Under the pieces are notes generated by a model. The model searched no databases. It saw only the letters and a list, made by a program, of their open reading frames with translations, and was not told the DNA's origin. Both the position numbers and the translations under genes were made by a program. From contig CALUPY010000022.1 in the NCBI GenBank assembly GCA_944322755.1, positions 1 to 40,918 on the forward strand: a stretch of 40,918 nt of DNA, written 5' to 3'. This document shows, piece by piece, positions 14,426-14,762 of the stretch. The number at the start of each line of letters is the position of its first letter. Position 1 is the stretch's first letter. The stretch comes from Candidatus Gastranaerophilales bacterium. Its GTDB lineage: Bacteria; Cyanobacteriota; Vampirovibrionia; Gastranaerophilales; Gastranaerophilaceae.

Positions 14426-14762
14426 ATATTCTATTCCTGTTGATAATAATGATACAAAATTGTATAATTATATTAATATAAAGCTGGTGTTTTATCTATA
14501 GTATAAAATCATTCAGTATTTATACAATCATAATAAAACAGATAGAATTCAGGATAGATAGACGGATAGGAACATTTTGAAAAAGATTTTATAAATTCGC
14601 TGTTACATTGCTTAACAATTATGCAAATTTTGTTAAAGTTTTTTTTAATTGTGCCGATAGATTAAGAATAGATAAAAAAACAAGATAGATAGATAGATAG
14701 ATAGATAGATAGATAGATAGATAAATTTAATAACTCGGGTATTAGCAAAATAAGGATACTTT
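14426..14762. other. Divergent intergenic region between der and the prepilin cluster
   Basis: An AT-rich 337-base region without genes. It must hold the promoters of der (minus) and A1 (plus), though I see no pair of hexamers that stands out on either strand. GATA-type motifs are scattered through it (around 14550-14570 and 14656-14672) and culminate in a perfect (GATA)10 tract. AAGGA at 14751-14755 is the ribosome binding site of A1. Confidence 0.5.
14684..14723. repeat. Perfect (GATA)10 microsatellite
   Basis: Ten uninterrupted GATA units (40 bases) ending 39 bases before the A1 start codon. Perfect tetranucleotide tracts of this length in promoter or leader regions of surface-protein genes are known in other bacteria as phase-variation switches through slipped-strand mispairing. 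Shorter, degenerate GATA repeats occur upstream of the paralog A2. Confidence 0.95.

Follow-up and report, generated by a model that had tools for sequence, protein, structure and literature searches.

The window analysed here is the whole of one contig (C22; 40,918 nucleotides) of a Candidatus Gastranaerophilales genome (G000; 2.19 Mb in 43 contigs). The Gastranaerophilales are gut-type, non-photosynthetic relatives of the cyanobacteria and are uncultured. Two cassettes of prepilin-like genes, each with the order A–B–C, are found on the + strand of this window. A1 (14763–16865), the first gene of the A1-B1-C1 operon, encodes a prepilin-like protein of 700 aa with a serine tract and a glycine-rich part; it is followed by B1 (16947–18272) and C1 (18293–19831), both of which encode prepilin-like, glycine-rich proteins. 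The second cassette consists of A2 (21132–23012; a paralog of A1 at 51% identity, without the long tract), B2 (23084–24496) and C2 (24518–26035), the last two again encoding prepilin-like, glycine-rich proteins, and a pilin-like gene, D (20001–20873, + strand), lies between the two cassettes. Upstream of A1 and divergent from it is der (13094–14425, − strand), which encodes an EngA-like GTPase. A third A–B–C group of this genome is located on contig C1. At the very start of the contig (positions 1–167) an 82-base direct repeat is present in two copies, possibly an assembly break point.

The A1 protein starts with MNGKKNCKFAFSMAEALVTMLVVALLVAAS, a prepilin-like N-terminus with the motif FSMAEALVTML, and has a hydrophobic helix at residues 13–30, a variable central region that includes a long serine tract, and a C-terminal part rich in glycine. 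The serine tract is encoded between positions 15400 and 15720; A2 is rich in Asp over the corresponding region and relatives are rich in Gly or Ser there, and because the composition differs in this way we regard the middle of A1-type proteins as highly variable. The best matches of A1 to Pfam and NCBIfam families are below cut-off, with no pilin match above it, and its AlphaFold model is poor (pLDDT 38.9) except for the N-terminal helix. An earlier note on this DNA, made from the sequence, had described a repeat tract in front of a surface-type gene; the prepilin-like N-terminus and glycine-rich body of A1 are compatible with this description, at family scores below cut-off.

A ten-unit GATA repeat upstream of A1

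The tract, (GATA)10, occupies positions 14684–14723 of the + strand and is a perfect repeat of exactly ten units, as the earlier note had read it; together with the preceding A it forms a 41-base perfect period-4 run (14683–14723). It lies just 5' of the A1 start, and the exact gap between the end of the tract and the ATG at 14763 is 39 bases (40 had been claimed). The tract is longer than the composition of the genome predicts: the next-longest perfect period-4 run in a 454-kb sample of the same genome is only 14 bases, and such runs reach 14–15 bases at most in 1-Mb Markov sequences. We found no second site with five GATA units in the whole 2.19-Mb genome, and in a set of 383 genomes from the family such a site was otherwise seen in just two, G148 and G062.

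Two promoter-like sites are found between der and the tract, and both are conserved at the orthologous locus of a sister species (G002): a distal site, TTGATA-17-TATAAT (14440–14468, + strand), whose hexamers are identical in the ortholog, and a proximal, extended −10 site, TTAACA-16-TG.TAAAGT (14612–14639, + strand), which reads TTTACA-16-TAAAGT in the ortholog. A Shine–Dalgarno-like AAGGAT (14752–14757, + strand), also conserved in G002, precedes the A1 start. The promoter-like sites are consensus matches only (six, as compared with an expectation of 2.8 for shuffled sequence). Since both conserved sites are upstream of the repeat, a transcript start downstream of it is not favoured, and judging from these predicted sites the tract most likely lies within the transcribed leader of A1. 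The sole −10-like hexamer downstream of the tract, TATTAG, was rejected as a promoter element, as it is TGTTAG in the G002 ortholog.

An inverted repeat, TTAACAA-N11-TTGTTAA, shares bases with the proximal promoter-like site; T8 follows it, and it may serve as an operator or as a weak attenuator. Its position just upstream of the tract would suit a switch that acts through DNA spacing, with the tract between operators or below the promoter, and there is a precedent in Neisseria meningitidis nadA, in which a (TAAA)n promoter tract between operators gives graded adhesin expression (PMC2791445). The A1 tract is likewise a non-coding tetranucleotide repeat before a surface-type gene; however, it is downstream of the predicted promoters, whereas that of nadA is between operators. 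As both promoter-like sites are upstream, the A1 tract separates no known promoter elements, and no second operator was recognised downstream of it, so that we consider a spacing switch very improbable.

Shorter GATA motifs in the leaders of A1 and A2

Short GATA motifs are present in the leaders of both A genes. The A1 leader has GATAGATAGA at 14553–14562 (+ strand), and the leader of the G002 ortholog is GATA-rich too. Downstream of a promoter-like site of its own (TTTACA-17-TATAAT, 20943–20971, + strand), the A2 leader contains GATAGATAGA at 21002–21011 and AATAGATAGATA at 21096–21107 (both + strand), so the shorter repeats that had been claimed for it are indeed there; that A2 is the 'fixed' cassette of the pair is a plausible guess only. 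Elsewhere GATAGATA is scarce, with three other sites in ~59 kb of sampled intergenic DNA of the genome. Recurrence in the A1, A2 and G002 leaders together with rarity in other intergenic DNA is what one would expect if the GATA motifs were a fixed regulatory element, i.e. binding sites, or a stabiliser of the leader, on which expression depends and whose copy number is no switch. But the ortholog in G002 makes do with one or two motifs at most, and ten perfect tandem copies are unexpected for a fixed array of sites; we therefore think this explanation unlikely.

The leader of the G002 ortholog

The G002 locus has the same neighbours (der, divergent, and A, B, C and D), and its A leader is ~80% identical to the A1 leader in an alignment. 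There is no GATA array at the site of the tract, where the differences between the two leaders are concentrated. Because the G002 leader is this similar, retains the promoter-like sites and is without the tract, we interpret the tract as a lineage-specific expansion. A search of genome contigs for further copies of the locus from the same species returned only the metagenome-assembled genome of the sister species, and a search of viral contigs returned none.

Possible modes of action of the tract

The repeat reads GAT AGA TAG ATA, so each sense frame runs into a TAG in the space of three units. Given a TAG in all three sense frames, and a tract that ends 39 bp before the ATG, a reading-frame on/off switch at A1 was rejected. 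Folding of the leader does not offer a switch either: the leader is no more stable than its shuffled versions, and in modelled leaders with 0–20 units the opening energy of the ribosome site is 3.2–3.4 kcal/mol throughout, a model that says nothing about mRNA level. As the opening energy is independent of the unit number, no folding switch is predicted. The options that remain are a graded effect on transcript level or stability, or no effect.

No effect is what would be expected of a neutral microsatellite, i.e. a chance expansion of GATA motifs in an A+T-rich leader that is variable in length without consequence for A1 expression. Such an origin is compatible with the short GATA seeds already in the leader, the absence of the tract from the G002 ortholog and the absence of a predicted folding effect, but it leaves two observations unaccounted for. 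This genome shows no general tendency to expand tetranucleotides, as no other long run was found in the 454 kb sampled, and the repeats of this lineage sit preferentially in surface-type genes (see below). We regard a neutral origin as possible, if somewhat doubtful.

The closest precedent for a graded effect, by analogy, appears to be uspA2 of Moraxella catarrhalis, which has (AGAT)n in its 5' untranslated region. Repeat length there changes the mRNA level up to 3.4-fold (PMC7302503; PMC4679880); 12–20 units were measured (PMC7302503), and 6–23 units are given across strains (Attia and Hansen 2006, as cited in PMC4679880). The A1 repeat unit is a cyclic permutation of AGAT, has the same strand relation to the gene and is also upstream of a gene, here for a candidate surface protein; if the predicted promoters are used, it would be in a 5' untranslated region as well. 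Its ten units are below the 12–20 of PMC7302503 and inside the 6–23 quoted for strains in PMC4679880. The two systems differ in that the genes and phyla are unrelated and in that the tract is 39 bp before the ATG in A1 but 132 bp before it in uspA2; moreover, the effect on expression, shown for uspA2, is a proposed one for A1.

By this analogy, we infer that (GATA)10 may be a microsatellite prone to slippage within the leader at the 5' end of the A1-B1-C1 operon: with units added or lost, the leader would change in length and sequence, and the altered leader would tune expression of the operon in a graded manner, at the level of the transcript or its stability. We give a probability of roughly 0.55 to the reading that the tract is such a leader-type contingency element, tuning a prepilin-like operon and belonging to a wider repeat-based repertoire in the Gastranaerophilales. 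The rest of this repertoire would consist mostly of poly-G tracts in the 5' coding part of prepilin-like, flagellin and polysaccharide-modification genes, and this composition also speaks against a leader mechanism, since the other repeat switches of the lineage are mostly of the coding-frame, poly-G kind and not leader tetranucleotides. The phase variation proposed in the earlier note thus holds in part: the outlier tract, the surface-type gene, the absence from the sister ortholog and the repeat-rich lineage are in its favour, but the classical on/off frame form is excluded by TAG, and predicted folding shows no dependence on unit number. It is a plausible, unproven reading of the A1 tract, made likelier by the lineage context.

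Repeat tracts in the same genome and across the order

Three G13 tracts are found in the genome of the window, all inside surface-type coding sequences and two of them out of frame. The first is in an AlgX-like gene (L203; C1:162739-162751), which is out of frame, as is its apparent ortholog in G001, with G12. The second is in a flagellin gene (L204; C12:58359-58371), in which the N-terminal part and the remainder are in different frames, and the third is in a flagellin gene with a GLUG insert (L205; C25:33774-33786), which is in frame and encodes 703 aa. Several flagellin-type paralogs of G001 (among L206-L218) likewise have G11–G13 at the corresponding place behind the N-terminal domain, and both in-frame and out-of-frame copies occur among them.

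In other genera, poly-G tracts are located between an ATG, itself preceded by a ribosome-site-like motif, and the prepilin motif. The pattern of G9, 10–40 bases and FTLAE codons matches 17 out of 116 genomes, and the reversed pattern matches none. We collected 63 readable tracts just 5' of a prepilin motif (9–14 bases; L026, L035, L181, L182, L223-L244 and L254-L292), from other genera of the family plus one of another family; 52 are out of frame, 10 are in frame and one is without a called start, in a non-random sample with many loci from genomes chosen for their tracts and with related paralogs within a genome. Start codons were called by a simple rule (a ribosome-site-like motif, ATG as the preferred codon, and no stop before the tract), and homopolymer lengths in assemblies may be off by one, which blurs the frame calls but would not create tracts. 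The downstream frame is long or reaches the end of the locus for 61 of the 63 tracts (60 of the 62 with a called start). As judged from these sequences, the comparison genes have what a coding-frame poly-G switch calls for, namely a start, an intact downstream frame and mixed frame states; the genes that are out of frame could still be expressed through transcriptional slippage. One of them, L035 (G12, out of frame), has a glycine-rich domain in Pfam and is distantly related to A1 (E = 2e-11).

The tracts can be very dense: a 400-kb sample of one genome contains 29 tracts of at least G9, against 0.28 expected, and genomes of some genera possibly carry at least a hundred poly-G tracts each. Because similar repeats, prone to slippage, abound across the order in genes for pilins, flagellins and surface sugars, the A1 tract is probably one of many switches by which these uncultured bacteria may vary their surface. 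On balance we lean towards the view that few bacteria are as rich in repeat-based phase variation as the Gastranaerophilales, with the poly-G tracts of the tract-rich genera mostly before prepilin motifs and out of frame, so that each cell would display a small, changing subset of a large stock of pilin-like proteins, and with the GATA repeat of A1 as a leader-type tetranucleotide variant of the same theme. Several poly-G tracts (in G017, G020 and others) are in the first bases of contigs, as if the tracts had broken the assembly.

In the phasomes of Campylobacter and Neisseria, the coding parts of surface genes contain numerous homopolymer tracts, and many of these are out of frame. The Gastranaerophilales tracts differ from these phasomes (for a review, see PMC11868660) in that they belong to an uncultured order of the cyanobacterial lineage and are centred on prepilin-motif genes. 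In Bifidobacterium breve, an intragenic G-tract is an on/off switch of sortase pili (PMC9187656); this is a case of slippage-prone repeats acting on the pili of a gut commensal, and it resembles the poly-G tracts in other genomes of the order, whereas A1 has a leader tetranucleotide and prepilin-like proteins instead of an intragenic G-tract and sortase pili. In the open-access literature we found no text that joins 'Gastranaerophilales' with 'phase variation', and the sole match for 'Melainabacteria' with 'phase variation' was a survey of flagellin diversity; the wider repeat repertoire of the Gastranaerophilales seems to be undescribed in the literature searched. This wider repertoire is of more interest than the A1 locus alone: if the tracts are variable, it would give an uncultured order of gut bacteria, not one of the classical pathogens, a large capacity for surface variation.

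Long tetranucleotide repeats are also found in other genomes of the order, where the GATA tracts of at least seven units seen besides that of A1 are (ATAG)12.5 and (TATC)12. In G148 (contig C11), (ATAG)12.5, a run of 50 bases, is located ~67 bp before a gene for a 743-aa coiled-coil protein (L060 / L069:9365-9414). The six-unit GATA repeat of G062 was dismissed as a parallel, as it is at the 3' end of a gene and is uninformative on leaders. The (TATC)12 repeat is from another family of the order, where it divides an Acyl_transf_3 gene into two frames (L121:1501-1548; G046:C2:108083-108130); when the gene is read across the repeat with X, the profile match extends from 2–209 to 2–319 of 326 positions, but at a score that drops from 70.6 to 59.9 bits.
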